This document shows positions 9,289 to 52,324 of a stretch of 62,396 bases of DNA, piece after piece. Each line of letters starts with the position of its first letter. The stretch's first letter is position 1. The stretch comes from Gemmatimonadota bacterium (GTDB lineage Bacteria > JAAXHH01). The DNA is taken from NCBI GenBank assembly GCA_009838645.1, contig VXRC01000002.1, forward strand, positions 1-62,396. The letters run 5' to 3'. Below the pieces are notes generated by a model, which saw only the letters and a program-made list of their open reading frames with translations, searched no databases and had not been told where the DNA came from. The translations under genes were made by a program, and so were the position numbers.

Positions 9289-9304
9289 ATGCCTCCGTCC
9301 CCGT

Positions 9305-10429
9305 TCAGATATCGGAATAGGACAGGTCGTCCGGATCACGGCGCATGTTGCGGAGCGGCCAGGAGTCGGCCGTGTTGGCCGCGAGGCCTTCCTCCGAGAT
9401 CTCTATGCCGAGTCCGGGCCCCTGCGGCAGCTCGACGAAACCGTCCTTGAACACCAGGGGCTGGGTGAAGAGCGTGTCGCCGCCGCCACCGCCGTATTCC
9501 TGGATCAGGAAATTGGGCGTGCCGGCCATGGCCTGCAGGGACGCGGCCACGCCCACCGGATCGGCGGCGGAGTGGGGCGCCATGGCCACGTAATGAACTT
9601 CGGCCAGGGCCGCGATCTTCTTCATCTCCAGGATCCCTCCGCAGTGGCGCACGTCGGGCTGGAGAATCGCGGCGACCTTCTTCTCCACCAGTTCCCGGAA
9701 CCCCCATCGGGTCGTGTTCCGCTCGCCGGTGGCGATGGGGATGGTGGTGGAGCGGGTGATCTCGAGCAGGGCGTCGACGTTCTCCGGATGGGCGGGTTCC
9801 TCCACGAACATCGGTTTGAGGGGTTCCAGTTCCTTCAGCAGGCGTCTGGCCATGGCCGGACTCACCGCCCGGTGGAAATCCACGGCCACGTCGACCTCCG
9901 GTCCCACGGCTTCGCGGATCGCGGCGACGCGGGCGATGATGCGCTCCATGGCCGCCGGCGTATCCACGAAACGCACCGGATCGGGAAAGGGGGTGCACTT
10001 GAGCGCGGTGTACCCTTCCGCCACCCGTGCCCGGGCATGTCTCGCGTATTCGTCCGGCGACGGGCCGCCGACGGACGCGTAGACCCGGACGCGATCCCGG
10101 CAGGAACCGCCCAGCAGCCGCCATACCGGCATGTCCAGCGACTTGCCGAGGATATCGAGACAGGCGTGCTCGATGCCGCTCAGCGCGGAGAGCAGGATGG
10201 GCATCTGGCGGCTGTAGCTCGAACGGAAGAGTGTCTGCCAGTGGTCCTCGATCTGCCGGGGGTCGCGGCCGCGGAGGTAGTCTTCCATGTCATGGACGGC
10301 CCGGGTAACCGTCCGGCCGTGCTCGTAGTTCATGGGCGACCCGTAGCCCACGAGTTCCGAATCGGTATGCACCTTGAGCAGCAGGCCGCGCTGCTTCAGG
10401 GGGATGACCTCGAACCGCGTGATCTTCAT
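9305..10429 (-). CDS. Enolase-superfamily sugar-acid dehydratase (mandelate racemase/muconate lactonizing family)
   Basis: Predicted 374-aa enzyme of the MR/MLE group, closest in layout to galactonate/gluconate-type dehydratases. Visible active-site blocks are ALKCTPFPDP (catalytic Lys region), VDVAVDFHRA (metal Asp and a His), FVEEPAHPEN (metal Glu), IATGERNTTRWGF (metal Glu) and VAMAPHSAADP (C-terminal catalytic His). It would abstract the proton alpha to a carboxylate and eliminate water from a sugar acid. Its first 136 codons and 31 bp of leader are present twice in tandem, so this intact copy has only half of the operator found at 10889-10907. The pcm-like gene follows after 16 bp. Confidence 0.87.
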   Translation of the reverse strand: MKITRFEVIPLKQRGLLLKVHTDSELVGYGSPMNYEHGRTVTRAVHDMEDYLRGRDPRQIEDHWQTLFRSSYSRQMPILLSALSGIEHACLDILGKSLDMPVWRLLGGSCRDRVRVYASVGGPSPDEYARHARARVAEGYTALKCTPFPDPVRFVDTPAAMERIIARVAAIREAVGPEVDVAVDFHRAVSPAMARRLLKELEPLKPMFVEEPAHPENVDALLEITRSTTIPIATGERNTTRWGFRELVEKKVAAILQPDVRHCGGILEMKKIAALAEVHYVAMAPHSAADPVGVAASLQAMAGTPNFLIQEYGGGGGDTLFTQPLVFKDGFVELPQGPGLGIEISEEGLAANTADSWPLRNMRRDPDDLSYSDI

Positions 10430-10899
10430 GGGTACTGCCCACTCCCGTCGTATCTACTTTCACCCGTGCCCGGGCATGTCTCGCGTATTCGTCCGGCGAC
10501 GGGCCGCCGACGGACGCGTAGACCCGGACGCGATCCCGGCAGGAACCGCCCAGCAGCCGCCATACCGGCATGTCCAGCGACTTGCCGAGGATATCGAGAC
10601 AGGCGTGCTCGATGCCGCTCAGCGCGGAGAGCAGGATGGGCATCTGGCGGCTGTAGCTCGAACGGAAGAGTGTCTGCCAGTGGTCCTCGATCTGCCGGGG
10701 GTCGCGGCCGCGGAGGTAGTCTTCCATGTCATGGACGGCCCGGGTAACCGTCCGGCCGTGCTCGTAGTTCATGGGCGACCCGTAGCCCACGAGTTCCGAA
10801 TCGGTATGCACCTTGAGCAGCAGGCCGCGCTGCTTCAGGGGGATGACCTCGAACCGCGTGATCTTCATGGGTACTGCCCACTCCCGTCGTATCTACTTT
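10022..10899. repeat. Perfect 439-bp tandem duplication
   Basis: Bases 10022-10460 and 10461-10899 appear identical on reading. Each unit carries the first 136 codons of the enolase-superfamily gene plus 31 bp upstream of its ATG, in minus orientation. The right junction cuts inside the 19-bp operator motif: the outer copy has the full site, the inner copy keeps only GTATCTACTTT and then runs into CACCCG. The unit length is not a multiple of three, so the outer reading frame cannot run in frame into the inner gene. The identity implies a very recent event or an assembly artefact. Confidence 0.92.
10461..10868 (-). pseudogene. Duplicated 5' fragment of the enolase-superfamily dehydratase gene
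   Basis: This is the outer copy of the tandem duplication. It starts at ATG 10868 and encodes the N-terminal 136 residues of the dehydratase (the capping domain and the first part of the barrel, through YASVGGPSPDEYARHARARV). It then leaves the homology and reads out of frame through the leader and start of the intact copy, stopping at 10290. It lacks every metal-binding residue and cannot be active. It keeps the native promoter/operator region, so transcription of the intact copy and of pcm downstream probably has to pass through it. Confidence 0.85.
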
Positions 10900-10907
10900 G
10901 TATACAC
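10889..10907 (-). promoter_or_regulatory. Putative operator, site 2 of the shared 19-bp motif
   Basis: Read on the minus strand the site is GTGTATACAAAGTAGATAC, ending 20 bp before the ATG at 10868. It matches the site at 18453-18471 at 17 of 19 positions and the site at 707-725 at 16 of 19. A position this close to the start codon suits repression. The copy belonging to the intact dehydratase gene was cut in half by the duplication. Confidence 0.55.
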
Positions 10908-10956
10908 GCCAATGGAACACGCCGGCGGAACACGCCGCCGGAAACCCGCTGTCGCC

Positions 10957-11679
10957 TTATCCTGTCGCCACCGGCCGCCTGTAGAACCGGTGGGGATTCG
11001 TCCGGGGTTCGTAGCCGAGGATGCGCCGGGCCTTGTGGATGGTGTACTTGCCTTGCTGCAGGTAGCTGCCCATGTTGAAGGCCTGGAAGAAGTCCGGCAC
11101 CTCCTCGATCTCCAGGGCCAGCCGGCAGGCTTCCACCAGGTCGTCGTAGACGATGGTGAAAGGCGGATGGTCGGCGTTACTGACCGGCTCTTCGGGCATC
11201 GGGCCCAGTCCGTTGAACTGGTAGCACACGGTGTGTATCCGGTACTTGCGGGCGTAGATTTTGCAGATCTCCATGGCCAGGTGCTTAGTCAGCATATAGT
11301 AAGCTGTTCCCGGTGCCTGCGGCACGTCGCCGATGTCGTGGTCGTGGAGATAGCCGGGGATGATGATCTCCGGACCCGTGTGCAGGATCTTCTCGATACC
11401 GAGTTCCGCCGCCGCCTTCATCACGTGCCAGGCGCCCCGGACGGACACGGCGAAACTCGCCACCGGATCCTGCCGGACCACGGTCCAGTTCATGATCGCG
11501 TCCATGCCGCGGGCGGCTTCCAGCACCTGCCCGTATTCGCCCATGTCCACGTGCATGATGGGCTTGCCGCCGGGATGGGGACGGATATCGGCCAGCAGCA
11601 GGTTGTAATGTTGTTCCAGGCCGGGGATGATGAACGGCGCGATATTGCCGGAGGCGCCCAGGAGGAGGACGTTTTTCAT
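10957..11679 (-). CDS. NAD-dependent epimerase/dehydratase (extended SDR family)
   Basis: Predicted 240-aa Rossmann protein. The nucleotide-binding motif GASGNIAPF begins at residue 8 and the SDR catalytic pair is seen in YYMLTKH (YxxxK), followed by VCYQFNGLGP. It would oxidise, epimerise or dehydrate a nucleotide sugar or another polyol. It is short for an extended SDR but complete. I chose ATG 11679 because AAGGAG lies about 7 bp upstream; a longer open frame up to 12372 is only a shadow of the preceding aminotransferase gene. The gap to that gene is 17 bp, so one operon is likely. Confidence 0.83.
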   Translation of the reverse strand: MKNVLLLGASGNIAPFIIPGLEQHYNLLLADIRPHPGGKPIMHVDMGEYGQVLEAARGMDAIMNWTVVRQDPVASFAVSVRGAWHVMKAAAELGIEKILHTGPEIIIPGYLHDHDIGDVPQAPGTAYYMLTKHLAMEICKIYARKYRIHTVCYQFNGLGPMPEEPVSNADHPPFTIVYDDLVEACRLALEIEEVPDFFQAFNMGSYLQQGKYTIHKARRILGYEPRTNPHRFYRRPVATG

Positions 11680-37708: not shown

Positions 37709-37849
37709 GTTTCGCTCCAGAGTTCAGAGGTGTCTGTTGCTGTGCGTCAACGTGGTTATATACTTGTAAAGGTAAACCTGAAACTAACAATTTGAAGTTG
37801 ACCCGGTCAAGCATACATGTTATCTCTTGTGTTGCACAGGAGACACACA

Positions 37850-40501
37850 ATGATCCGAGAGGCGTACTCGATCCGTCCGTGTCGTCGTCGATGGATCACC
37901 GCACTGCTTGTCGCCGCACTGTCCCTTGCGGGCGCCGATACGGCAGCGGCGCAGGCCGGCCAGCGCATCTTCCGCTCGATCCCTGCGCCGGGCGACACGA
38001 CGCACGTAGCCGTACCGGGCGGGCGGTTCGAGAAGGGCGGTTTCGGCCGGTGGTTCTATGGCAGCGACTACCGCCAGCTCTGGACGACGCCGCTCGATCT
38101 GCCGGTCCTTGATCTGGATACCGTGGGCGGCGGGCTGTCGCCCATGCGACCCGGCGGCGCCGGCCAGTCCATTTCGCTCCATTTCATGGGCGAGGACGGC
38201 CGCCGCTACACGGTGCGCTCCATCGACAAGGACCCATCCAAGCGGTTGTTGGAGGAACTCAAGGACACGGTCGTCGAGGACGTGATCCAGGACCTCGTGA
38301 GCGCCCACCTGCCCGCGGCGGGCCTGGTGGTGGACGCCCTGATGGACGCAACCGGAGTCCTGCATGCGCCGCACCGGCTCGTGGTGATCCCCGACGATCC
38401 CAGGCTGGAATCGTTTCGCGAGGAATATGCCGGGCTGATCGGCACCCTGCAGGAACATCCGTCCGAAGCCCCCGGCAACGAGCCGGGATTCGCCGGTTCA
38501 CGCCGGGTGAGCGGCTCGGAGCGGTTGTACGAGGGCCTCGAAGAATCCCCCTGCGAACGCGTGGACGCCCGGGCCTATCTCAAGGCGCGGCTCATCGATT
38601 TCCTGATCGGCGATTCGGACCGGCACCGGGGCCAGTGGCGCTGGGCGCAATTTCCGGTCGGCGACTGCTACACGTGGCTGCCGGTCCCCGAAGACCGGGA
38701 CAAGGCCTTCATCGACCTGGACGGCCAGTTCATGAAACTGGTACGCCGTATCGAGCCCAAGTTCGTCCGCTTCCGGGAGAAATATCCTAACCACAAGGGG
38801 CTGTCCCGCACGGGCTGGGAACTGGACCGGAGGCTGCTGGCCGAACTGGAATGGAGCGCGTGGGAGACCGTGGTCGCCGCGGTACAGTCCGAATTGCCGG
38901 ACCCGGTGATCGACGAAGCCGTCCGGCGGCTACCGGATCCGTTCTACGCGCAGGTGGGGGAATTCCTTGCCCGGACGCTGAAAGTGCGCCGGGACCGGCT
39001 CGATGAATTCGCGGCGCGGTACTACGGGTTCATCAGCGACCAGGTCGAGATCCGGGCGACGGACGAGGACGAGTACCTCGAACTGGATCACCGGACCGAT
39101 GGCGCGCTGGAGATCCGCATCAGCCTGGCCGGGAACCGGGACGCGCCCTACTTCCGCCGCACGCTCTATCCTAACGAGACCAGCGAGGTCAGGATCTACC
39201 TGCACGGCGGGGACGATCAGACCAACGTCGTCGGAGACAGGGCGAGGATCAAGGTGCACGTGGACGGGGGCGGGGGCGACGACACCTTCGCGAACAACTC
39301 CCGGGCGGGACGCCGGACGACACGGTTCTACGACGCCCGGGGAAGCAACCTCTTCGAAGGCGGCCGGGCGCACGTCAACGAGCGACGTTTCGTGCGGCCG
39401 AGGAACGAGAGCGCGATCTCGCAGGACATCTATACCCTCGACTGGGGCCGTGTATCGGGTATTCGCCCGGTGGTCTACTACAAGTCCGACTTCGGCTTCT
39501 ACGCCGGGCTTCAGTACGCCCGATTGAGTTATGGCTACCGGAAAGCGCCGTATGCCGCGCGATACGCCATCGACGTCGGCGTCGCCTCACGGGGTGGAGT
39601 TAAACCCTTCGTCATCTATTCCGGCCGGTTCCGGCATATGCTTCGGAGCCTGGACGGACAGCTGGAGATGGGGTACTCCGGCATCAACATGGTACGCTTC
39701 AACGGCTTCGGCAACGACTACAATCTCACGGAGGACGAGCCGTTCTACGAGCTGGAACAGGCGCAGTTCCTTCTCGCACCCGCCCTGTCATTCACGGGTT
39801 CCGGTGATGCGCACGGTAAGTGGAACCTGGCGGGCGGCCCCGTCGCCAAGATAACCAACACCTCATTAGACGAGAACGAAGGGAAGTTTATCGCATCCTA
39901 CGAAACGCCGCTGTACGGGACGGGATCCTTCGGGCAGGCCGGGGTGCGTGGGGAAGTCGTCTTCGACACCCGCGACCATCCGGCTCACGCCCGGCGGGGC
40001 GTGCGGATCAGGCTGGCCGGTGAACTCTATCCGGCGCTGTGGGACGTCGAATCGATCTTCGGCAATGTCGCGGGGGAGGCGTCCACCTACCTCTCGGCGA
40101 ACATCCCCGCCTCCCCCACCCTCGCCCTGCGCGTGGGCGGCAAAACCGTCCTCGGGGAGTATCCCTTCCACGAAGCCGCTGCGATTGGCGGTTCCGAAAA
40201 CCTGCGGGGATTCCGCAAGTTCCGTTTCGCGGGGGATTCGGCGGTCTACGGCAACGGTGAGATACGTTTCCGGCTGGCCCCGATCAAGTTCCTGGTTCCC
40301 GGTGACCTCGGCGCGTTCGGCGCCGTCGACGTGGGGCGTGTATTCTACGGGGACGATCCGGGTAATGCCGACAACTGGCATATCGGCCGGGGCGGCGGGC
40401 TCTGGGTCTCCTTCACCGAGCGGCGGGCGACGCTGAGCCTGGCGATGATGGACAGCAAGGACAAGACCGAGCTGTACCTGTACTTCGGGTTCATGTTCTA
40501 G
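37850..40501 (+). CDS. BamA/surface-antigen barrel protein with kinase-like N-terminal region
   Basis: Predicted 883 aa with signal peptide (ITALLVAALSLAGADTAAAQ). The C-terminal ~330 residues form an Omp85/bacterial surface antigen barrel: VVFDTRDHPAHARRGVRIRL, and GGSENLRGFRKFRF carries the RGF motif of the family. The N-terminal half contains FLIGDSDRHRGQWRW (about residues 250-264) and DRDKAFIDLDG (about 283), the DxDRH...D pattern of HipA/PI-kinase/FAM20-type catalytic sites. AGGAGA precedes ATG 37850. It faces a metallophosphoesterase lipoprotein gene 52 bp away; in Bacteroidetes I recall these as one fused protein. Whether it phosphorylates anything is inference. Confidence 0.8.
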   Translation: MIREAYSIRPCRRRWITALLVAALSLAGADTAAAQAGQRIFRSIPAPGDTTHVAVPGGRFEKGGFGRWFYGSDYRQLWTTPLDLPVLDLDTVGGGLSPMRPGGAGQSISLHFMGEDGRRYTVRSIDKDPSKRLLEELKDTVVEDVIQDLVSAHLPAAGLVVDALMDATGVLHAPHRLVVIPDDPRLESFREEYAGLIGTLQEHPSEAPGNEPGFAGSRRVSGSERLYEGLEESPCERVDARAYLKARLIDFLIGDSDRHRGQWRWAQFPVGDCYTWLPVPEDRDKAFIDLDGQFMKLVRRIEPKFVRFREKYPNHKGLSRTGWELDRRLLAELEWSAWETVVAAVQSELPDPVIDEAVRRLPDPFYAQVGEFLARTLKVRRDRLDEFAARYYGFISDQVEIRATDEDEYLELDHRTDGALEIRISLAGNRDAPYFRRTLYPNETSEVRIYLHGGDDQTNVVGDRARIKVHVDGGGGDDTFANNSRAGRRTTRFYDARGSNLFEGGRAHVNERRFVRPRNESAISQDIYTLDWGRVSGIRPVVYYKSDFGFYAGLQYARLSYGYRKAPYAARYAIDVGVASRGGVKPFVIYSGRFRHMLRSLDGQLEMGYSGINMVRFNGFGNDYNLTEDEPFYELEQAQFLLAPALSFTGSGDAHGKWNLAGGPVAKITNTSLDENEGKFIASYETPLYGTGSFGQAGVRGEVVFDTRDHPAHARRGVRIRLAGELYPALWDVESIFGNVAGEASTYLSANIPASPTLALRVGGKTVLGEYPFHEAAAIGGSENLRGFRKFRFAGDSAVYGNGEIRFRLAPIKFLVPGDLGAFGAVDVGRVFYGDDPGNADNWHIGRGGGLWVSFTERRATLSLAMMDSKDKTELYLYFGFMF

Positions 40502-40553
40502 GGGAGGGCCGGGGGCCGACTGGGGGCCGACGCGGCACCCGGGATCAGTGGAC

Positions 40554-41753
40554 CTACCTGCCGTCCGACTCGTCCCGCAGCGGAATGCGCATCTGGAACA
40601 CGGGCGTTTCCTGTCCCGTTCTCACGACGCGCACGACGGGCACGACGGGGACTTCTCCTCCCTCGAGGCTGACGAAGTCGAGCACGACGAATCCCGGAAC
40701 GGCATGGGCGAAGATCGTTCCGGGAAGGTCGGTCACCCGCGTCACCTTGCCGGTGGAGCCCGCCCCGCTCACGATGTGCATCCGGGCAATCTCGTCGCCT
40801 TCGAAGAGCTGCAGGCTGTGGTCATGTCCCGCGGCGTAGACGAGGGGCCTGTGTCTTCCGAGTGCGATCTCGACTTTTTCCGCGTAGTCCACGTATTTCG
40901 GGTGGTGCAGCGTGAGTTCGGATCGTGGCTGCAGCAGGAGATGATACAGGTTGACCAGGATATCGATGAACATCCCGCGCCCCAGGTCGGCGCGGTCTCC
41001 GGCGGACCGCAGCGGATAATGACTCGCCACGATCACGAAATGCTCCTCCAGGGCGGCGAACGCCTCGTCGATCTGCCTGCCAAAATCCCCTTCTGTGCAT
41101 CCGTCGGCGTCGACAACATCGGAGAACCACGGCAACCAATCGATGGCGACGACCGCGATCCCCCGTTCCATCTGCTCCCCCGGCCGAAGCAGTTCGCGGA
41201 CGGCGGGACCCGGACATCCGTCCCGGGGCAGGAAGTCCACGTCTCCCGCGGGCCAGGCCAGTACGAACTCCTGCTGCGCGATGACGCGCTCTCCCGTCCA
41301 GTCTCGCGGAGACGAACCCCAATCGTGGTTGCCCGGTAAGAAGATCCGCAGCGCCGAGGTGGCCTCGAGTTGCTGGCGCAGCACGGACTCGCCCCAGGCG
41401 CGGTTATCCTCTTCCAGTCCCGACGGGTATAAATTGTCGCCCAGAAACACGACGGCGGCACGGTCCGGCGGAACCGCCCAGCGCCCGATTGCGGCTAAAG
41501 TCGGGTCCTCCGGAACCGGCTCGCCGGTGTCCCCGGCCAGGATGACGCGATAGGCGACCCGGGCCGTATCGGCTGGGCCGGCGGTGGCGATCGTGTCCGC
41601 TGGGGCGGCCCACCGGATGAACGGGTCCCCGTCCGCGTCGTAGTTTTCACCCCGCAATCGTCCGGCGTGGCATCCTGCCAGGAATACGGCCAGCGCCAGG
41701 AGCAGTGCGGCCACCGACAGGAATTCCGGCCGAGCGTATTTTGATCTTTGCAA
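40554..41753 (-). CDS. Calcineurin-like metallophosphoesterase, lipoprotein
   Basis: Predicted 399 aa. A lipobox (LAVFLAGC) follows a hydrophobic signal. The dimetal phosphatase motifs are in order: LAGDTGE, FLGDNLYPSG, LPGNHDWG, ASHYPLRS and AAGHDHSLQL. It should hydrolyse a phosphate ester in the periplasm. It starts with TTG 41753 placed directly after the TAA of the preceding gene (41754), so it is the last cistron of the four-gene unit running from 44987. The 3' end faces the barrel-kinase-like gene 52 bp away. Confidence 0.85.
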   Translation of the reverse strand: MQRSKYARPEFLSVAALLLALAVFLAGCHAGRLRGENYDADGDPFIRWAAPADTIATAGPADTARVAYRVILAGDTGEPVPEDPTLAAIGRWAVPPDRAAVVFLGDNLYPSGLEEDNRAWGESVLRQQLEATSALRIFLPGNHDWGSSPRDWTGERVIAQQEFVLAWPAGDVDFLPRDGCPGPAVRELLRPGEQMERGIAVVAIDWLPWFSDVVDADGCTEGDFGRQIDEAFAALEEHFVIVASHYPLRSAGDRADLGRGMFIDILVNLYHLLLQPRSELTLHHPKYVDYAEKVEIALGRHRPLVYAAGHDHSLQLFEGDEIARMHIVSGAGSTGKVTRVTDLPGTIFAHAVPGFVVLDFVSLEGGEVPVVPVVRVVRTGQETPVFQMRIPLRDESDGR

Positions 41754-42833
41754 TTACCGATCCTTTACAACGGGGTAGACACTCAGGGTCGCGCGCTTCC
41801 CCGCCCCTTCATCCGCTATGACCAGGGAATTGTCGGCTGCGAAAGTGATGCCCTCGGCCTGCCGGTGCCGGCTGGCCTTCAGTCTGATTACGGCGAGGAC
41901 CGATCCCCCGGGGGTAATCTCGGCAACGGCGCGCTGGCGGGCCGCCACGACAAAGTAGTGTCCCGATGCCGGATGCCGTTCGATGCCCGAGGGTTGGAAT
42001 GTCACGCGATCAATCGGGCGGGCGAACGCGTCGGCCTCTATGTGGATGCGCCCGTTTTCGACAAGCCGTTTGGTAACAAGCGACCAGCGGTAAATGACGA
42101 TCTGGTCCCCCTGCCGGGGGGTTCTGGGGTTCTTGCTGACGAGCAGCAGCTCGCGCCGGTCCGGATCGTACGCAAGTCCCTCTATTTCATGCACTCGTCC
42201 GACGCCGGTCTCAAACCGGTTGTAGGGAACGGCCGCCCCATCGTCGCCTTCAACGAACTCGTACAGCCGGCCCGCGCTCGTGACGAGGTACAGGCGGCCC
42301 TCAGCGGCGGCGATACCTTCAAAGTCGTCGGCGACCCGGCCGCGCGGACCACCGAGTTCGAAGTCTTTCACGATCGAACCATCGCGGTAGTCGATTTCTA
42401 CTACCGTGCCTCTTTCGTCATCGTGGGCGAGAAGCCGGTTCCCCGCGAGCATGGCCAGGCCGGATATTTCCCGCATCCGCCTCGGCAGCCTGAATTGCCG
42501 GTCCGGCTCTTCGAAAGCGTAACGCCCGAGGAGAAGAGGATCCCCCGAGATCGCCGCGGTGGAATCGGCAATGGATGCCAGGGCGACCGTGGCTGCGGCC
42601 CTTGCGATCACCGCTGAATCCATAGTCGCGCGCTGCCCCGCAGCGGCGCCATCATCTTGCATCGCAGGAACACCGCCTGGTGCGCCATCACGCCGCGCTT
42701 CCAGGTCCGGATCGATCGATGCGCCCTCGTCCGGATCGTCCGGCGCGCCCTCCCGCACCAACAGAGCCACCGCAAAGAAGACCACGCTCAAGCCCAGAAA
42801 CGCCGCCAGAAGCTTATTGCCCGGTGCCCTCAT
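41754..42833 (-). CDS. SdiA-regulated-like beta-propeller protein with PGN membrane anchor
   Basis: Predicted 359 aa. It begins RAPGNKLLAAFLGLSVVFFA, one membrane anchor, then a long low-complexity linker. The remainder has repeated propeller-like strands: REISGLAMLAGNRLLAHDDERGTV, DDFEGIAAAEGRLYLVTS, HEIEGLAYDPDRRELLLVSK, PSGIERHPASGHYFVVAA and QAEGITFAADNSLVIADEG. This is the pattern of the SdiA-regulated/esterase-like phytase-type propellers. Its anchor matches that of the protein at 43818 position by position. I chose ATG 42833, since longer forms overlap the DUF4956 gene 13 bp away. Confidence 0.78.
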   Translation of the reverse strand: MRAPGNKLLAAFLGLSVVFFAVALLVREGAPDDPDEGASIDPDLEARRDGAPGGVPAMQDDGAAAGQRATMDSAVIARAAATVALASIADSTAAISGDPLLLGRYAFEEPDRQFRLPRRMREISGLAMLAGNRLLAHDDERGTVVEIDYRDGSIVKDFELGGPRGRVADDFEGIAAAEGRLYLVTSAGRLYEFVEGDDGAAVPYNRFETGVGRVHEIEGLAYDPDRRELLLVSKNPRTPRQGDQIVIYRWSLVTKRLVENGRIHIEADAFARPIDRVTFQPSGIERHPASGHYFVVAARQRAVAEITPGGSVLAVIRLKASRHRQAEGITFAADNSLVIADEGAGKRATLSVYPVVKDR

Positions 42834-42846
42834 AGACCACCTCTCC

Positions 42847-43770
42847 TCAGGGTTGCGGCCGCTCCTCCAACTCCACCTTTGCGGCATGACCCTCGGTGAT
42901 TTTCTCAAGCGCCGAGGTGAATGCGTCCGGGTCCGCCTTCTTTTTCATTCGGACGTCGAACTCGACGATCGAAGCGTCGTCTTTCTGTTCCACTACCCCC
43001 GCGAACTGCCAACGCGCGGCATGGGTCGCCAGCAGCGCTTCGGCGGCCTGCTGCGCTGCTTCGGTCCGCGACGTATGTACCCTGAGCCTGGAGGTGAACG
43101 GTTTCGCTTTTTTGTCCGACTGGGGATCGCTCCCGTCAGGCAACTGGTGCCCACCGGGCGGATGCACCAGTCTGAGCCCGGACAGTACCGCGGGCTCCGC
43201 GCCCCAGTTCATGCGCCAGACGACGAGTACGACGGCATTGAAAGCCACCGAGGCCAGGATCGCCACCGAACCGTACTGGATCCCGGCGGCCAGCCCGATG
43301 CCGATGACGATGAACATATAGATGGCGTCCATGGTCTCGTTCAGCGACGTGCGGAAGCGTACCGCGGCGACAATACCCGCGATACTGAAGGCGAGGGCGA
43401 TGCTGTCCTTCACGAGAAACACGACGAGGGCGATCGCGATGGGGACGACGAGGAGGGTCTGGGCAAAGGCCTGGTCGTATTTCTTGCGGGGCCGCGTCCA
43501 GCGATAGACCCAGACCACGGGCAGGGCGAAGAGAAAGGAAAACAGCAACGACATGGTCACCGGAACAAACACCTGGGACAGGCCCGCGTCGGCCTCGAAC
43601 TGTTCGAAATCCAGGGCCGGGAGGGAGCTGTCTTCGATCCGTTCGGCCACCTGAAATTCGAGGAAGACCCCCGGAAGCAGTTCCCACAGGGCCGCGAAAA
43701 ACAGAAACGAGGCGATATAGTAAACCACGAGCCGTATAATGATATGGTCGAGCAGGCCAGATCCTTGCAT
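42847..43770 (-). CDS. DUF4956-family membrane protein
   Basis: Predicted 307 aa. The DUF4956 hallmark is seen at DSIALAFSIAGIVAAVRFRTSLNETMDAIYMF (cited as landmarks SIALAFSIAGIVAAVRFRTS), with about six hydrophobic helices, an extracytoplasmic segment between the first two, and a cytoplasmic C-terminal domain (VHTSRTEAAQQAAEALLATHA). DUF4956 genes are often next to polyphosphate-polymerase (VTC) or CotH kinase-like genes; here neither is adjacent, though a kinase-like barrel protein lies across the operon end. GAGGTGACTT precedes ATG 43770. Role unknown. Confidence 0.84.
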   Translation of the reverse strand: MQGSGLLDHIIIRLVVYYIASFLFFAALWELLPGVFLEFQVAERIEDSSLPALDFEQFEADAGLSQVFVPVTMSLLFSFLFALPVVWVYRWTRPRKKYDQAFAQTLLVVPIAIALVVFLVKDSIALAFSIAGIVAAVRFRTSLNETMDAIYMFIVIGIGLAAGIQYGSVAILASVAFNAVVLVVWRMNWGAEPAVLSGLRLVHPPGGHQLPDGSDPQSDKKAKPFTSRLRVHTSRTEAAQQAAEALLATHAARWQFAGVVEQKDDASIVEFDVRMKKKADPDAFTSALEKITEGHAAKVELEERPQP

Positions 43771-43817
43771 AAGTCACCTCGGAGTCGTGCGATGCGAGGG
43801 CGGTCAATCCATGCGCC

Positions 43818-44987
43818 CTACCACGTGAAACTGAATGATCCGGCCACCCGCGGATCGGACCCGGCCACTTGCGGATCGGACCCGGCCCTGCCGGCGTCCA
43901 CGGCCTTGTACCGGCCTGGCACCGCCGACCAGTCTTCGTAGATACTGCCGTCCAGAAAATACCGCCGCGTCATACCGGGTCCCATGGCCGGCCTGTCCGA
44001 CAGAAAGAGTTCGTAGAAATGCGCAGGCGGGTCCGGACCGGTCCGATTGCCGTATGGGACGTACTCGCCGAGACCGTCGCCGTCGACGTCCGCCCGGATC
44101 CAGTCGAGCTCGAGCAGGCCGTTATAGGTCCGGTCGGCTATCATGGCGCTTACCTCGGCGTCAAATCGCGTGATGATCGCATCGGCTTCCGGAAGCGAAC
44201 GGCGTACGGCGAGGTGAAGCGATCGCGCGAGCAGCGGCGTCGAGCCAAACACCAGACGTGTCCGCGCTTCGTCTCCGTGATTGGAGATGAGGTACTGGAC
44301 GACCAGGTCGTCCAACAGCGCGTAATCCACCTCGCCGTTCAGGAGTCTTGCGACACCGCCCTCGTCGCTGTTCGAGCGGACGAATTCCGGCCCGCCCTCA
44401 GTCACGTCCACACTTGCGTAGGCGAGCCCGGCGACCAGGGCGACCTTCGTTCCGTCGAGGCCGGCCAGGGAGGCAGCGGATACGTCACTGCCCGTCCGCC
44501 CCACGAGGATCAGCCGGTTCTCCAGATACGGCCGGGAGTAGATCATCGCGCCTTTCCGCGCTTCATTCTGCCAGACTGCCGCACTTCCGTCGAACCCTCC
44601 GGTCAGCAACACGGACGACAACCTTTCTTCGTCCATGACGACCGTATCGACGCCGATGCCCATGCGCTCCAGGGCCGCTTCGACCAGGTCGAGGGCGAAC
44701 CTGGGTTTTCCCGGCACGCCGGCAAAAGGCGACCATGTTGTCGTCACCAGTCGCAACGGCCGGCCTGACAGCGCGGGATGACCGTCGAATCGCGCGCCAG
44801 AGGCAGACACATCTGCCGGACCATTCGTAGCGGCGTCCTGCTCGTACAGGCTTCCCGATGGGTCGCCTGGCCGGACTTCCGCATTGGAATCGAACAATGC
44901 GAACTCCTCCACGATCACCGCCACCACGAAAAAAACGAAGCTGAAGATAAGAAACCATACCAGCAGTCTGTTACCCGGTCTGTACAT
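43818..44987 (-). CDS. PGN-anchored periplasmic binding-domain protein
   Basis: Predicted 389 aa. RPGNRLLVWFLIFSFVFFV forms one membrane anchor, followed by a Ser/Asp-rich linker and a domain with the periplasmic binding protein type II layout: LRLVTTTWSPFAG, FALDLVEAALERMGI, AAVWQNEARKGAMIYSRPYLENRL (shown for landmarks), LNGEVDYALLDDLVVQYLI. A DxDxDG-type loop (RADVDGDGLGEY) near the C-terminus may bind calcium. It is the first gene of the four-gene unit. It probably senses a small molecule at the membrane; the ligand is unknown. A short repeat (GSDPQVAGSDPRVAGS) ends the protein. Confidence 0.8.
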   Translation of the reverse strand: MYRPGNRLLVWFLIFSFVFFVVAVIVEEFALFDSNAEVRPGDPSGSLYEQDAATNGPADVSASGARFDGHPALSGRPLRLVTTTWSPFAGVPGKPRFALDLVEAALERMGIGVDTVVMDEERLSSVLLTGGFDGSAAVWQNEARKGAMIYSRPYLENRLILVGRTGSDVSAASLAGLDGTKVALVAGLAYASVDVTEGGPEFVRSNSDEGGVARLLNGEVDYALLDDLVVQYLISNHGDEARTRLVFGSTPLLARSLHLAVRRSLPEADAIITRFDAEVSAMIADRTYNGLLELDWIRADVDGDGLGEYVPYGNRTGPDPPAHFYELFLSDRPAMGPGMTRRYFLDGSIYEDWSAVPGRYKAVDAGRAGSDPQVAGSDPRVAGSFSFTW

Positions 44988-45346
44988 GATCCTTACCTTG
45001 TTGTTTGACTAAAACGCGAAGCGTGGCCCTGACCGCCTGCAGGACCCCGGCCTCGAACTAAGCCGCATCCGCTATGGTATATCACACGAGAGCCCGGCGA
45101 TTCGGAAGGCTCTGCGTATCAGACAGCAATGTTGAAAAAGCAAAAAGTTGTTATAGCAGGTTACCTATACGCTAAGGAAGTTCAACCATAATAAAAACCA
45201 CGGAGCCGTACTTCGCATGCTAAAAAACGAACGGTATGCTAAAAACCTGAAACTATGTACTAAATAAATGATTATATTAACTGTACATTCAACAGATTAT
45301 ACCTATGAATCCGTAGCGGCGCACACGATTCTGAGAGTTTCCCGGT
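44988..45346. other. 359-bp A/T-rich divergent intergenic region
   Basis: This gap separates the minus-strand four-gene unit from the plus-strand secretome block and is visibly richer in A and T than its surroundings. It holds two copies of ATGCTAAAAA (45217-45226 and 45236-45245) 19 bp apart. I see no convincing sigma70 box pair or RNA element. Confidence 0.5.
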
Positions 45347-47101
45347 TTGCTTACGTCCCGCTTCATCTCATCTGTTGTCGCGCTTTTGGTCCTGTCGGCA
45401 GCACTGGTTTCGTGTGGCGGAGGGGGATCTTCGCAACCCGGTCCGACGTCGCCCGTTACGCCGACACCACCTCCCACGCCTACACCGCCGCCGACGCCTC
45501 CTCCGCCACAACCCGTCCCGACCAGTGTCCGGATCACGCCGGCCTCCCTGACCCTGACCGCCCTGGGACAGACCGCGCAACTGACCGCCGCGGTCAACGA
45601 TCAGAACGGCAGTCCGATCACCGGGGCATCAGTGGCCTGGTCATCGAGCAACACCGACGTAGCCACGGTGAGTACCGGAGGCCTGATTACCGCCGTGAGT
45701 AACGGAACGGCCCGCATCACCGCGCGTTCGGGCAGCGTCTCGAACGGGATCACGGTGACCGTATCGGCGCCCCTTCCCAACCGCGCCCCGGAGCCAGTGG
45801 ATGAAATAGAACCTCAGGCACTGGTCGAGAACGGTTCTCCCGCGGAGTTGGACGTATCCGCCGCCTTCCGGGACCCGGACGACGACGAACTGACCTATTC
45901 CGCGGAATCCAGCAACGACCAGGTAGCCACGGCGGAAGCGTTCGGCGCCACCGTCACCATCCGTCCCGTCGCGGCCGGCGAAGCGACCGTGACGGTCACG
46001 GCGACCGATCCGGACAGCCTGAGCGCCACGCAGTCCATATCGGTCATCGTTACGGGGGTGAATACCCGGCCTCAGGCGGTGGGTATGCTCGCGGACCTGA
46101 GACTGGTCGAGGGCGGACCGGCAGAGGAACTGGACGTGTCCGACGCGTTTCTCGATGCCGAAGGCGACAGTCTGGTATATACCGCTGTATCGAGCGACGA
46201 ACTGATCGCCACGGTCGGAGCGATGGAAGCGCGGATCACGATCCGGCCGGTATCACCGGGAAAAACGACGATTTCAGTCCATGCGACCGACCCGGAAGGC
46301 CTGAGCGCCACGCAGAGCTTCGCCGTGACGACGGTGGTTTCGAGTCCGGATCGGAATGCGCTCGTCGCGTTCTACGAAATGACAGGCGGGCCGGATTGGA
46401 CGGACCGGTCGAACTGGCTGTCCAACGCACCGATGAACGAGTGGCATGGCGTCACGACAGACGCCGACGGCATGGTCATCAGGCTGGAGCTGAACGCAAA
46501 CAGTCTTCGGGGCACGCTCCCGGCTGAACTCGGGCGGCTCGGCAATCTCACGGCATTGGACCTCGGCGGCAATCACCTGACGGAAAGCATACCGTCCTCG
46601 GTCGGCCAGTTGATCTTGCTTGAATCGTTGAACCTGGAAGAGAACCAGCTGACGGGTCCTATGCCTCAGGAAATCGAGCACCTGCGAAATCTCGAAACAC
46701 TCTATCTTGCCGGAAACCAACTATCCGGCGGAATTCCCGGTGAACTCGAGCATCTCGATGCGCTTGAAGCACTTGACCTCGGGGATAACATGTTCTCGGG
46801 CGCCATCCCGCCCGAAATCGGCACGTTGCAGACCCTCGTCCACCTTGATCTATCGGCCAATCAGCTATCCGGTCCGCTGCCCCCTGAAATGGGCCGGCTC
46901 GGCAATCTGACCGCCCTCAACGTGGCCTCGAACCCGGAACTCGCCGGACCGCTGCCCCTGGCACTTTCAAATCTCGACCTGGAAAGCCTGCACGTTAACG
47001 GAACCCAACTTTGCGTGCCGTTATCCGAGGAATTCCTGGAATGGCTGAGTGATATACCGGATCTCAGCGAAATACCAATACCTGTCTGCCCGGACGAGTA
47101 A
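45347..47101 (+). CDS. Surface lipoprotein with Big_2, dystroglycan-like and LRR modules
   Basis: Predicted 584 aa. A lipobox (SAALVSC) leads into a Pro/Thr linker (TPTPPPTPTPPPT). Next is a Big_2-type Ig domain (SVRITPASLTLTALGQTA, WSSSNTDVATVS), two dystroglycan/cadherin-like domains (FRDPDDDELTYSAESS; FLDAEGDSLVYTAVSS), and a plant-type leucine-rich-repeat domain with about seven repeats (LGRLGNLTALDLGGNHL, LEHLDALEALDLGDNMFSG). The start is TTG 45347, chosen because it opens the signal peptide; the ribosome site is weak. Likely an adhesion or binding surface protein; its target is unknown. Confidence 0.8.
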   Translation: MLTSRFISSVVALLVLSAALVSCGGGGSSQPGPTSPVTPTPPPTPTPPPTPPPPQPVPTSVRITPASLTLTALGQTAQLTAAVNDQNGSPITGASVAWSSSNTDVATVSTGGLITAVSNGTARITARSGSVSNGITVTVSAPLPNRAPEPVDEIEPQALVENGSPAELDVSAAFRDPDDDELTYSAESSNDQVATAEAFGATVTIRPVAAGEATVTVTATDPDSLSATQSISVIVTGVNTRPQAVGMLADLRLVEGGPAEELDVSDAFLDAEGDSLVYTAVSSDELIATVGAMEARITIRPVSPGKTTISVHATDPEGLSATQSFAVTTVVSSPDRNALVAFYEMTGGPDWTDRSNWLSNAPMNEWHGVTTDADGMVIRLELNANSLRGTLPAELGRLGNLTALDLGGNHLTESIPSSVGQLILLESLNLEENQLTGPMPQEIEHLRNLETLYLAGNQLSGGIPGELEHLDALEALDLGDNMFSGAIPPEIGTLQTLVHLDLSANQLSGPLPPEMGRLGNLTALNVASNPELAGPLPLALSNLDLESLHVNGTQLCVPLSEEFLEWLSDIPDLSEIPIPVCPDE

Positions 47102-47164
47102 TCCGGATCGACAAACCCTTAAACCGCCGCGACGCCTGCCGTCGCACGAAGGTGTGGCCATTTG

Positions 47165-50100
47165 ATGTATCGAACCGCTAAACTCGGATTCCCGGTTATC
47201 CTTTGCCTGGTGGCCGTATCTCTTTTCACCTGTGGGAAAGACAATCCCACCAGTTCCTCACGGCAGGAAGCAACCGCACCGAAGGCCGCGGCAAGGCCAC
47301 AGACCACGGCAGCCGGTCCGCAGACCACGGCAGCCGGTCCGCAGGCCACGGCTACCGGTCCGCAGGGCACGGTCACCGGTCCGCAGGGCACGGTCGCCGG
47401 CCAGGCAGGGCAGGCCACCGAGCAGGCCACCTCACCGGATTACGTGATCGAATCGGTGGAAGTCAGCGAATCGAGCCTGAGCGCCGGACAGCGTTTCTCC
47501 ATGACCGCAACGGTCAAGAACCAGGGCGTGGACTACCCCGGTTTTGATCTGGCAACGCTGCGGTTCTACCGTTCTTCCGACGCCACGATCTCCACCGCTG
47601 ACACGGAACTCGGTGATCGGCCCATCCTCCCGCTCGACGCGAACGAGACCCGGGAGTGGTCCCTGCCCGTCCTCTATGCGCCGTCGGCGGCCGGTACCTA
47701 TTACTTCGGGGCCTGTGTCGACCCCCTGCCGGAAGAAGCCGACCGGCAGAACAACTGCTCGGTCGCGGTGGCGGTGAGCGTCGGCGGACCCGATCTGGTC
47801 GTCGATTCCCTCGCGGTGAGCGAATCGAGTCCGAGTGCGGGCCAACGCTTCTCCATGACCGCCAGGGTGCGGAACCAGGGCGCCGGCGCCACGATCGACC
47901 TGACGACGCTGCGCTTCTACCAGTCCGCCGACGCGACGATCTCCACCGCCGATACGGAACTCGACACCCGGCCGATCCTGACCCTCGACCCGGGCGGGAC
48001 CCGGGAGTGGTCCCTGCCCGCCCTGTACGCGCCGTCAACGGCCGGCACCTATTACTACGGCGCCTGCGTCGATCCGCTGGCGGAAGAAACCGACCAGCAG
48101 AACAACTGCTCGGCAGCACTGAAGCTGACCGTCGGAGGACCCGACCTGGTCGTCGATTCCCTCGCGGTGAGCGAGACGAGTCTGAGCGCCGGGCAGCGCT
48201 TCTCCATGAGCGCGACGGTCAAGAACCAGGGCGGCGGCGGATCCATATCCTTGACGACCGTGCGCTTCTTCCTGTCCACAGACGCGACGATCTCCACCGC
48301 CGACACGGAGCTCGATACCCGGCCCATACTGCCCCTCGACCCGGCCGAGACCCGGGAATGGTCCCTGCCCCTGCTCTATGCGCCGTCCACCGCCGGCACC
48401 TACTACTACGGCGCCTGCGTCGATCCCCTGCCTGAGGAAACCGACCAGCAGAACAACTGCTCGGACGCGGTGACCATATCCCTGAGAACGGCGGACCTCA
48501 TCGTCGAGCGGCCTACGGTCAGCGACGTCAGCTCCACCGCGGGCGGCAGGTTCTCCCTGGGCGCCACGGTGCGCAACCAGGGCGGCGGCGACGCCGTCGC
48601 GTGGACGACGCTTCGGTTCTACCAGTCCGGCGACGCCGCGATCTCGACCGCCGATACGGAGGTCGGCACATGGGCCATATCTCCCCTGGAGGCGTCCGGA
48701 TCGCAGGAAAGGACGCTCAGGTTCCTCGAACTGCCCTCGGACGGCGGCACCTATTACTACGGGGCCTGTGTGGATCCCCTGCCCGGCGAGGCCGACACGG
48801 GGAACAACTGTTCGGGCGGGGTGACCATTACCGTCAGCAGCCCCGACCTGGTCGTCGATACCCCGACCGTCAGCGAGCGCAACCCGGCGCCCGGCGAGCA
48901 ATTCGACCTCAGCGCCACGGTGCGCAACCAGGGCGGCGGCGACGCGGCCAATTCGACCACGCTCCGCTACTACCGCTCGAGCGACGCCGCGATCTCAGCC
49001 AACGATACCGAAGTCGGGACCGACTTCGTAAGCAGGCTGGACGCGGCGGCAACCGCCGAGGAGTCGATCTCGCTGACGGCGCCCGATGCGGCGGGAACCT
49101 ACTATTACGGGGCATGCGTGGACGCGCTGGCCAACGAGACGGGCACGGGGAACAACTGTTCCATGGGCGTCGCGGTGACCGTGGGACAGACCGCCAACCA
49201 GCCCCCGGTAGCCCGGGGCATGATCCCTGACCAGGAAGTGGACGGCGGCGAGTCGGTCACGGTGGACGTGTCCTCGTATTTCACGGATCCCGACGGCGAT
49301 GCGCTGACCTACCAGGCCCTGACGTCTGACGCCGCAGTCGCGACCGCTTTCATTCCGGGCAGCGTGGTGACGATCCGGGGCGTGTCGGCCGGCAGCGCGA
49401 CGATCACCGTCACGGCCAGCGATGGCAGCCTGACCGCCGGGCAATCGATTCACGTCACCGTGCGGCGTTCCATCGTCCCGCTTGCCGATCTCATCGTGGA
49501 ATCGCCGTCGGTCAGCGACGGTAGTCCCGAACCGGACGAGCGGTTCACGTTCCGCGCGACGGTTCGCAACCGGGGCGACGGCGACGCCTCGTCCTCGACC
49601 ACGCTGCGGTACTACCACTCCGGGGACGCCACGATCTCGGCCGCGGACACGGAAGTCGGCACGGACAGCGTGCGCTCCCTGGACTCTTCCGAGACCAGCG
49701 ACGAATCGATCGCGTTGAACGCGCCTTCAGACGCGGGCACGTACTACTACGGCGCCTGCGTGGACGCGGTGTCCGACGAATCCGACAGTCAGAACAACTG
49801 TTCCGTCGCCGTGACGGTGACGGTGGGCCAGCCCGTCAACCAGGCGCCCGTCGCACAGGGCACGATTCCGGCACAGAACGTGGAGGTGGACGAATCGGTC
49901 CGAATCACCGTGTCCTCTTATTTCAGCGATCCTGACGGCGACCGGTTGACGTTCTCGGCCGCCACGTCCGACGCGGCGGTCGCCACGGCGGCCACTTCGG
50001 GCAGCGTGGTGACGGTGGAAGGCAAGTCGGCGGGCAACGCGACCATCACCGTTACGGCGGACGACGGCAGCCTGACCGCGAGGCAGACGATCCGCGTGAC

Positions 50101-52324
50101 CGTGCGGAACCCCGTCGTGCTCGCGCCGGACCTCATCGTGGAATCGCCGACGGTAAGCGAAGATCAACTGAGTGCCGATGAGCGATTTACCTTCCGGGCC
50201 ACCGTGCGCAACCAGGGAGACGGCCGGGGGTCTTCCACGACCCTGCGTTATTACCTTTCCACCGACGACACCATTACTTCCGGCGACACGGAACTGGGTA
50301 CAGACCGCGTATCTTCGCTCAGACCATCGTCCACCAGCAATGAATGGATCTCCCTTAGAGCGCCGGCGGCGCTCGGCACGCACTACTACGGCGCCTGCGT
50401 GGACGCGCTGTCCGAGGAGTCGAATAACGGGAACAACTGCTCCGCCGCGGTCATGGTGACGGTCGTAGGTCCCGACCTGGTCGTCGGACTGCCTTCGGTA
50501 TCCAACGCCAGTCCGCAGGTCGCGGAAGTGTTCGCCCTGAGCGTGACGGTCACCAACCAGGGCGCCGGCGACGCCACCTCCTCGACGACGCTTCGCTACT
50601 ACCGGTCCGACGACACCACGGTATCCTCCGACGATACGGAAGTGGGAACGGACTACGTATCCAGGCTCGACGGCGGCAGGACCGGCGACGAATCCATCAG
50701 CCTGGCGGCGCCGGACGCCGCCGGAACCTACTACTACGGCGCCTGCGTGGACGCGCTTCCCGCTGAAACGAACGACCAGAACAACTGCTCCGGTGTGGTA
50801 TCCATCGACGTCATGGAAAAACCGACGATCGTCGGCGCCGACGCCTACGCATACCTCACGCAGTCGGTACAATCGGTCGGCGACCCCGTCGCCCTGATCG
50901 AAGGCGACCAGGCCCTGTTGCGCGTATTTCTGGCAAGAGACGGCGACGATGACGTCGGCATCCCGCCGGTTCGCGCCACCTTCTACCAAAACGGGTCGGT
51001 CGCGCACGAGGTGGATATACCGGGCAAATCCGCCAGCATACCCGAGCAGATCGAGGAGGGCGTGCTGGAACTGTCTTCCAATGCGCTGATACCCGGCTCC
51101 GTCATCGAGCCGGGCCTGGAAATGGTCGTCGAGGTCGACCCAGACAGCACCCTGGACGCGGCGCTCGGAATTGCCCGTCGCATACCGGCCACGGGACGCA
51201 CCTCCGTCGACGTCCGGACAGTTCGTTCTTTCGACATCCTGGCGATTCCCTATCTTTGGGAAGACAACCCGGACCGTTCCATCCTGACGGAGATCAACGC
51301 CATCACCTCACGCGGCGAAGTCCTGCGCGAAACCCGCGACTATCTGCCGGTGGGCGACATTACGTACGACGTGCACGACCCGGTATTCGTTTCGTACGAT
51401 CCGACCGGTGATCGCGCCGAGGATCTCATTACGCTGACGGAATCGATTCGCGACATGGAAGACTCGGAGGACACCTATTACATGGGTGTGTTCAGACGCG
51501 GAGGCGACAACGGCGTCCTTGGAATCGCATACGTAGGCGGTTATTTTCTGGGGTACATCAGGGAGTATTCGAGTGTGACCGTGCTGCAAGGTCCCGTCAT
51601 CGCGCACGAATTCGGCCACAATCTGTCTCTGCGGCACGCGCCGTGCGGCGGTCCTTCCGGAACGGACTCCAACTATCCGGAATCCGACGGATCCATCGGC
51701 GCGTGGGGCTACGACTTCAGCAGGCGGGAATTGATATCCCCCAGCCGGCCCGACCTGATGAGCTACTGCGAGCCGGAGTGGATAGGCTACTACAGTTTCA
51801 ACAAGGCGCTTCGCTGGAGACAGTCCAAAGACGTCAGGCTGGCGGTAACGCCGTCCACCACACTGGGGCTGATGCTCTGGGGCCATGTAGACGCATCCGG
51901 AGACCTCGTGCTGGAACCGGCTTTTGCCGTCGAAGCGCCACCGAACGTCCCTCAAGGCAGCGGTCCGTACCGGCTCACGGGACAGAGTACGAACGGCAGC
52001 GTCCTTTTCGATGTTTCATTCGGATTGAATGGATTCGGCGACATAGGGGGCGGCGGCTTCAACTTCATCCTTCCGTTCCGGGCGGACTGGCCCGGCAGGC
52101 TGGATCAGATCACCCTTTCCGGGCCGGAAGGCGTGGTGATACAGGATAAGGAAAGCGACCGTTCCGCGGCGCTTTTGCTGGACCGCGCCACCGGCCAGGT
52201 ACGCGGGTACCTGCACGACTGGGCCGTCACGGGCGCGGGGATGCCGCCGGCCCGCCGCGTACTGCCCGAACCGGGACTGGAGGTGATTACGAGCCAGGGC
52301 GTTCCCGATGCGGCGGACTGGTAG
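47165..52324 (+). CDS. Large CARDB-repeat surface protein with C-terminal zincin metallopeptidase
   Basis: Predicted 1719-aa lipoprotein (SLFTC lipobox). A Thr/Ala/Gly-rich linker made of five 21-bp repeats comes first. Eight CARDB-type domains follow, each starting near DLVVDSLAVSES and ending with TYYYGACVDPLPEE...QNNCS, interrupted by two dystroglycan-like domains (FTDPDGDALTYQALTS; FSDPDGDRLTFSAATS). The C-terminal region is a peptidase: HEFGHNLSLRHAPC (about 1479-1492, zinc-binding HExxHxxxxxH) and the later DLMSYC (Met-turn) as in metzincins. It probably cuts extracellular proteins or glycoproteins. ATG 47165 is preferred over the adjacent TTG 47162. Confidence 0.83.
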   Translation: MYRTAKLGFPVILCLVAVSLFTCGKDNPTSSSRQEATAPKAAARPQTTAAGPQTTAAGPQATATGPQGTVTGPQGTVAGQAGQATEQATSPDYVIESVEVSESSLSAGQRFSMTATVKNQGVDYPGFDLATLRFYRSSDATISTADTELGDRPILPLDANETREWSLPVLYAPSAAGTYYFGACVDPLPEEADRQNNCSVAVAVSVGGPDLVVDSLAVSESSPSAGQRFSMTARVRNQGAGATIDLTTLRFYQSADATISTADTELDTRPILTLDPGGTREWSLPALYAPSTAGTYYYGACVDPLAEETDQQNNCSAALKLTVGGPDLVVDSLAVSETSLSAGQRFSMSATVKNQGGGGSISLTTVRFFLSTDATISTADTELDTRPILPLDPAETREWSLPLLYAPSTAGTYYYGACVDPLPEETDQQNNCSDAVTISLRTADLIVERPTVSDVSSTAGGRFSLGATVRNQGGGDAVAWTTLRFYQSGDAAISTADTEVGTWAISPLEASGSQERTLRFLELPSDGGTYYYGACVDPLPGEADTGNNCSGGVTITVSSPDLVVDTPTVSERNPAPGEQFDLSATVRNQGGGDAANSTTLRYYRSSDAAISANDTEVGTDFVSRLDAAATAEESISLTAPDAAGTYYYGACVDALANETGTGNNCSMGVAVTVGQTANQPPVARGMIPDQEVDGGESVTVDVSSYFTDPDGDALTYQALTSDAAVATAFIPGSVVTIRGVSAGSATITVTASDGSLTAGQSIHVTVRRSIVPLADLIVESPSVSDGSPEPDERFTFRATVRNRGDGDASSSTTLRYYHSGDATISAADTEVGTDSVRSLDSSETSDESIALNAPSDAGTYYYGACVDAVSDESDSQNNCSVAVTVTVGQPVNQAPVAQGTIPAQNVEVDESVRITVSSYFSDPDGDRLTFSAATSDAAVATAATSGSVVTVEGKSAGNATITVTADDGSLTARQTIRVTVRNPVVLAPDLIVESPTVSEDQLSADERFTFRATVRNQGDGRGSSTTLRYYLSTDDTITSGDTELGTDRVSSLRPSSTSNEWISLRAPAALGTHYYGACVDALSEESNNGNNCSAAVMVTVVGPDLVVGLPSVSNASPQVAEVFALSVTVTNQGAGDATSSTTLRYYRSDDTTVSSDDTEVGTDYVSRLDGGRTGDESISLAAPDAAGTYYYGACVDALPAETNDQNNCSGVVSIDVMEKPTIVGADAYAYLTQSVQSVGDPVALIEGDQALLRVFLARDGDDDVGIPPVRATFYQNGSVAHEVDIPGKSASIPEQIEEGVLELSSNALIPGSVIEPGLEMVVEVDPDSTLDAALGIARRIPATGRTSVDVRTVRSFDILAIPYLWEDNPDRSILTEINAITSRGEVLRETRDYLPVGDITYDVHDPVFVSYDPTGDRAEDLITLTESIRDMEDSEDTYYMGVFRRGGDNGVLGIAYVGGYFLGYIREYSSVTVLQGPVIAHEFGHNLSLRHAPCGGPSGTDSNYPESDGSIGAWGYDFSRRELISPSRPDLMSYCEPEWIGYYSFNKALRWRQSKDVRLAVTPSTTLGLMLWGHVDASGDLVLEPAFAVEAPPNVPQGSGPYRLTGQSTNGSVLFDVSFGLNGFGDIGGGGFNFILPFRADWPGRLDQITLSGPEGVVIQDKESDRSAALLLDRATGQVRGYLHDWAVTGAGMPPARRVLPEPGLEVITSQGVPDAADW
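47300..47404 (+). repeat. Five 21-bp tandem repeats encoding the linker
   Basis: Five consecutive 21-base units of the form CAGaCCACGGCaGCCGGTCCG encode seven-residue blocks (QTTAAGP-type). The first two are identical and the rest vary at a few positions. Being a multiple of three, changes in copy number would lengthen or shorten the linker without breaking the frame. Confidence 0.85.

Follow-up and report, generated by a model that had tools for sequence, protein, structure and literature searches.

Five neighboring genes of a Gemmatimonadota bacterium (GTDB lineage Bacteria; JAAXHH01), here designated A to E, form one conserved gene module that probably acts in the cell envelope. They lie within positions 1 to 62,396 of contig VXRC01000002.1 (GenBank assembly GCA_009838645.1), and this stretch of 62,396 nucleotides is referred to here as the window. 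The cluster itself is established by its joint retention and loss within the genus and by the recurrence of B, C, D, and E in another phylum; a role for it in handling phosphate or polyphosphate is proposed tentatively. An earlier note, made from the sequence alone, had described A to D (positions 40554 to 44987) as a four-gene membrane unit. The genes and two of their domains are located as follows, with the basis of each assignment in parentheses.

43818-44987, minus strand: gene A, anchored periplasmic solute-binding protein (SBP) of family 3, Venus-flytrap type, 389 amino acids (aa) (PF00497, genus conservation)
42847-43770, minus strand: gene B, DUF4956 inner-membrane protein, 307 aa (PF16316)
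42859-43104, minus strand: predicted C-terminal ferredoxin/ACT-like domain of B, beta-alpha-beta-beta-alpha-beta (weak model, Foldseek)
41754-42833, minus strand: gene C, anchored SdiA-regulated/phytase-like beta-propeller, 359 aa (PF06977, PF13449)
40554-41753, minus strand: gene D, calcineurin-like metallophosphoesterase lipoprotein, uncertain TTG start (PF00149, motifs, lipobox)
37817-40501, plus strand: gene E, secreted kinase-motif domain and Omp85 outer-membrane barrel, 894 aa (PF01103, joint presence and loss, clustering)
37994-39196, plus strand: uncharacterized kinase-motif domain of E, with invariant R, K, DxDR..QW, and DRD (conservation, 53 sequences)

Conservation of the cluster

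Genes B, C, and E and the anchor at the N termini of A and C were searched for in genomes of the window's order, and D was followed by synteny only. Of 12 genomes of the genus, 8 keep the order and strand of A-B-C-D, in agreement with the earlier view that these genes form a unit, and in these 8 genomes E lies convergently after D wherever the contig extends that far. A, B, C, and E are present together in 8 of the 12 genomes and missing together in 4. Because the four are kept and lost together, E is a member of the unit, though it lies outside the interval considered earlier and on the opposite strand; the four-gene unit was drawn too small. In two good assemblies that lack the unit (G001 and G006), the flanking L-PSP, YkgJ-like, and pyridoxal phosphate enzyme genes are intact and A to E are gone from the site without trace. 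In two further genomes, A to D are gone, and beside intact flanks stand a broken remnant of E (G011; L147, positions 6294-7551) and about 45 codons of decayed E (G008; L149, positions 7980-8153).

A second home of the unit surfaced through a search with the E domain. Relatives of E occur in 87 of 298 genomes of another phylum, that of genome G347. Within 6 kb of E at 40 loci of this phylum, DUF4956 was found at 24, D at 15, C at 11, and a CYTH-PPK1 fusion at 14. In G347 itself, DUF4956, E, and the fusion (its PPK1 part assigned by Pfam, its CYTH part from a reading of the N terminus) abut or overlap on one strand. At one locus (L243), B-C-D-E are tightly spaced and share a strand, and another (L210) has E-B-C-D on one strand with gaps of 18, 15, and 7 bp; in both, the DUF4956, SdiA-regulated/phytase-like, and Metallophos families were identified independently by Pfam, and the L210 phosphoesterase matches D's own profile only weakly. 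In G348, D and E are fused as one protein of 1,238 aa, with an SdiA propeller adjacent. Gene A was not found at any of these loci, and the C proteins of these outside clusters carry no anchor; we therefore take B-C-D-E to be the more widespread core, to which this genus has added A and the shared anchor. The co-occurrence of the original four genes elsewhere, which the earlier note had put forward as a check, was thus found for B, C, and D and not for A, so the refuting case in which the genes never occur together elsewhere does not hold.

DUF4956 is present in 56 of 384 diverse genomes. A VTC polyphosphate polymerase gene was found in the fetched stretch around DUF4956 in 30 of 50 neighborhoods and a CotH domain in 13 of the 50; 28 adjoining VTC-like genes share the strand of DUF4956 and are separated from it by a median of 7 bp. 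An SdiA-regulated propeller adjoins DUF4956 in three loci (L103, L105, and L108). Within the window's order, one genome (G013) has a VTC-DUF4956 pair, and another (G015) has VTC, CotH, and DUF4956 on one contig. VTC and PPK1 make polyphosphate, and CYTH and VTC domains have the triphosphate-tunnel fold. As a separate observation, at L112 (positions 8915-11088) a DUF4956 gene is followed directly by the gene for a secreted protein carrying the kinase-like motif NTDW...DFDW. This protein showed no profile link to E or CotH and may represent a third type of kinase that partners DUF4956.

Protein families

The families named earlier for A to D (periplasmic sensor, DUF4956 membrane protein, beta-propeller, and metallophosphoesterase lipoprotein) are supported by Pfam and by a conserved lipobox in D, and the gene positions and spacers of 47 bp (A-B), 13 bp (B-C), and 0 bp (C-D) were confirmed. 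The 0-bp spacer hinges on a TTG start of D directly after the stop codon of C; relatives have other start positions for D and a wider gap. Gene A passes the PF00497 (SBP_bac_3) cutoff (29.4 bits versus 26.4; E-value, 7.7e-7), its closest sequence match in the PDB is the periplasmic domain of BvgS (9e-8), and it is conserved across 8 genomes of the genus. Gene B passes the curated DUF4956 (PF16316) cutoff (48.5 bits versus 30.6; E-value, 1.1e-12), is the sole DUF4956 copy in the window genome, and is better conserved than A or C. AlphaFold models of the DUF4956 protein and the E domain were built from few near-identical sequences. The DUF4956 model is weak as a whole (predicted local distance difference test [pLDDT], 46), with a C-terminal part at about 70 for which Foldseek returned ferredoxin-like/ACT chains, all weaker than 1e-3. 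Gene C matches PF06977 (SdiA-regulated; 1.4e-9) and PF13449 (phytase-like; 6.3e-8). Gene D matches PF00149 (4.9e-7) with intact GDxG, GDN, GNHD, and GHDH motifs, and these motifs and the lipobox Cys28 are invariant in seven sequences.

Gene E is convergent with D and encodes a secretion signal, then a domain of about 400 aa without a Pfam family, then an Omp85 barrel (PF01103; 2e-8). A Pfam search of 39 members of the E domain also gave no family match. In 53 diverse sequences, R75, K79, D207, D209, R210, Q214, D234, D236, and G244 (numbered as in the L024 domain) are invariant, and R235 is present in 52. In HipA/CotH-type kinases, the catalytic and metal loops look similar to E's DxDRHxxQW ... 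DRDxAF pattern, and K79, D207xD209R210, and D234RD236 may correspond to the adenosine triphosphate (ATP)-site Lys, the catalytic Asp loop, and the metal Asp. Alignments to CotH (P = 0.006; probability, 6%) and to CtkA (E-value, 1.1) are nonsignificant; both land on the same loop of E, and no other kinase alignments were obtained. The AlphaFold model of the domain, from four sequences, has a pLDDT of 33 and is unusable for fold assignment.

Shared N-terminal anchor

The first 30 residues of A and C resemble each other, and all of the shared residues listed in the earlier note were found in both. The two copies, supported by profile and shuffle tests, are as follows.

44898-44987, minus strand: shared anchor, copy on A
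42744-42833, minus strand: shared anchor, copy on C

The copies are identical at 17 of 30 positions in the window and at 16 to 19 of 30 per genome across relatives. Shuffled C anchors (20,000 shuffles per genome pair) gave a mean of 2.7 to 2.9 identities and a maximum of 12, and among 281 open reading frames with an N-terminal transmembrane segment, the top match to the A anchor other than A or C reached 10 of 30. A full-length C profile picks up A proteins through about their first 40 residues (E-values of about 1e-7 to 1e-6). In every one of the 8 unit-bearing genomes, among them G007, which had been left out of the profile, an anchor profile gave exactly two strong matches, A and C. It found the anchor on no other protein in 16 genomes (next-best E-value, 0.09), so the anchor is limited to A and C; the occurrence on many unrelated membrane proteins that would have refuted the earlier note was not seen. 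The invariant core in relatives is GN[KR]LLxxFLxxSxxFFxxA, and P4 and E28 vary. About a dozen positions are identical between A and C in every genome; the other anchor positions, and the linkers behind the anchors, have diverged. In the window, the same codon is used at 8 of the 17 identical residues.

Judged by these sequence comparisons, the anchors of A and C are truly homologous. A generic signal anchor was considered and rejected, given the specificity of the profile and the shuffle and open reading frame comparisons. Conservation beyond hydrophobicity favors a binding role for the anchor. The association of C with DUF4956 does not need it, since C in the other phylum stands beside DUF4956 without an anchor.

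Noncoding and neighboring features

The spacer between A and B is listed separately.

43771-43817, minus strand: A-B spacer (46 to 47 bp, with strongly conserved sequence across 8 genomes)

This spacer is 47 bp of noncoding sequence in the window, and CGCATCGCACGA ... CCGAGGTGA is invariant in the 8 genomes. Mean identity in the spacer region is 92%, versus only about 55% upstream of A, and the conserved spacer is possibly a site of translational coupling or an RNA element. Positions 44988 to 45346, between A and a divergent leucine-rich repeat (LRR)/Big_2 gene, are AT rich, with the G+C fraction falling to 0.39 versus 0.62 to 0.68 around them, and are likely a regulatory region; a scan of positions 40400 to 45500 found no sigma-70 consensus promoter. 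Gene A has a conserved C-terminal extension after its binding domain, with an EF-hand-like loop, DxDGDGLGEY, at about residues 297 to 313. The LRR/Big_2 protein is adjoined by a giant secreted protein of 1,720 aa (positions 47162-52324) with repeated CARDB-like units and a metalloprotease-like HExxHxxxxxH motif (HEFGHNLSLRH); both vary in length and order among relatives.

Proposed function and alternatives

The best explanation at hand, which we hold tentatively, is that the module handles phosphate or polyphosphate from the inner to the outer membrane. The connection to phosphate and polyphosphate comes from the linkage of the B and E genes to VTC and CYTH-PPK1. B would lie in the inner membrane, expose an ACT-like domain to the cytosol, and connect the phosphate or polyphosphate pool there with the periplasm. 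The shared anchor would keep A and C on the periplasmic side, where C would bind or scaffold and A would add small-ligand sensing in this genus. D would hydrolyze phosphoryl groups in the periplasm, and E, with a periplasmic kinase-motif domain on its outer-membrane barrel, would transfer them.

Several points weigh against this explanation. No polymerase is encoded in the window's cluster, and CYTH-PPK1 is likewise absent from it, so the polymer would have to come from the ordinary housekeeping PPK1 that the genome encodes on a different contig. Neither VTC nor CotH (PF08757) was found in the genomes of the genus. The 40 E loci of the other phylum were chosen across families among the E matches, not randomly, and B, C, D, and PPK are all missing from 11 of them. 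That DUF4956 proteins transport phosphate or polyphosphate is itself putative, and the motifs and nonsignificant alignments of E suggest a kinase but do not prove one.

The main rival, which we consider rather unlikely, is surface phospho-signaling: E would phosphorylate exported or surface proteins or glycans in the manner of CotH and HipA, D would dephosphorylate them, A and C would sense ligands, B would relay to the cytosol, and polyphosphate would be linked through phosphate supply only. It fits the alignment of E's invariant K, DxDR, and DRD pattern with kinase catalytic loops, the adjacency or fusion of kinase-motif E and phosphatase D, the BvgS-like sensor domain of A, and the CotH kinases alongside DUF4956 in 13 of 50 loci, but it requires an extra explanation for the linkage to CYTH-PPK1 and VTC and sits poorly with the absence of A outside the genus. 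The periplasm is also poor in ATP, which counts against it. That the genes share a neighborhood without a common function is very improbable. The confinement of A and the anchor to one genus would agree with chance, but joint loss, clustering across phyla, and the D-E fusion do not, and for B, C, D, and E a chance neighborhood is rejected by the cross-phylum clusters as well as by joint loss.

Two readings of the anchor, each of which we regard as doubtful, part over its binding role. The earlier note proposed that the anchors dock A and C onto the DUF4956 protein as a sensor complex. The anchor is specific to the unit and conserved in sequence, not merely in hydrophobicity, and between the genes for A and C, only B encodes a multispan membrane protein, which is also better conserved than either of them; pairing of the A and C anchors with each other would fit the data equally well, however, and C adjoins DUF4956 without an anchor in the other phylum. 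Alternatively, the anchor may be a passive relic, a signal anchor copied onto a neighboring gene as a ready-made targeting segment. A and C are neighbors transcribed in the same direction, the sharing of 8 of 17 codons is consistent with an old copy, and the anchor is a local innovation, as C proteins from outside the genus were not found to carry it. A relic accounts less readily for the dozen or so positions at which A and C still agree in every genome despite the divergence of the other positions and the linkers.

Relation to known systems

DUF4956, CotH, and a polyphosphate polymerase are known as a set at Gram-positive Pel loci (PMC7112168). In Streptococcus intermedius, Pel and aggregation changed upon deletion of SIR_1592 and SIR_1594; the study describes the former as a membrane protein that is MgtC-like and has its ACT domain inside the cell and the latter as a CotH protein, and it suggests roles in phosphate metabolism (PMC12345266). 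SIR_1592 is probably the DUF4956 protein of the SIR_1592-1594 set. Like the VTC-DUF4956-CotH set of Pel loci, the window has DUF4956 beside phosphate-linked genes and an exported protein of putative kinase type; unlike it, the window has a propeller, a phosphoesterase, an Omp85-fused kinase-motif protein, and a solute-binding sensor in place of VTC and CotH. Membership of the window's unit in that set was rejected, as DUF4956 is present but neither VTC nor CotH occurs in the genus. The CYTH-PPK1/DUF4956/E clusters of the G347 phylum share with the window the mutual proximity of various subsets of B, C, D, and E, in those clusters on one strand, and differ in having a polyphosphate kinase, in lacking gene A and the anchor, and in that E usually runs in the same direction as B.

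Single proteins also have known counterparts. B resembles the MgtC family as a membrane protein with a C-terminal ACT-like domain (in B, from the weak model), but has no MgtC match in Pfam. E shares the DxDRHxxQ/N and acidic metal loop pattern with atypical kinases of the CotH/HipA type, including CtkA, but has no significant sequence match to them and is fused to an outer-membrane barrel. A shares a ligand-binding domain with the BvgS Venus-flytrap sensor and SBP family 3, but is anchored by one N-terminal segment and lacks a histidine kinase domain, and the cluster showed no ABC transporter gene. The earlier statement that no system of this composition had been described holds in that no published description of the A-E set was found in the open-access literature; it is too broad in that DUF4956 with a polyphosphate polymerase and CotH was already known (PMC7112168, PMC12345266) and B-C-D-E recurs in another phylum. 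The unit is a variant of the DUF4956-phosphate neighborhood, and its most surprising part is the kinase-motif Omp85 protein E.

DUF4956 is common yet unexplained, and the cluster links it to four more envelope components. The further ties to polyphosphate-making enzymes of two kinds bring the role of DUF4956 within reach of testing. A bolder and improbable version of the phosphate-handling proposal is an undescribed trans-envelope machine, in which DUF4956 would move polyphosphate, or its signal, over the inner membrane; the Omp85-fused, kinase-like E would use polyphosphate, possibly as the donor instead of ATP, to modify the surface; the D phosphoesterase would provide the balance; and this genus would add control by a solute-binding sensor anchored alongside the propeller. 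If the phosphate-handling proposal is correct, the cluster would provide a phosphoryl-transfer system for the periplasm and the outer membrane, sites poor in ATP, as well as candidate machinery for polyphosphate in the periplasm or at the surface.

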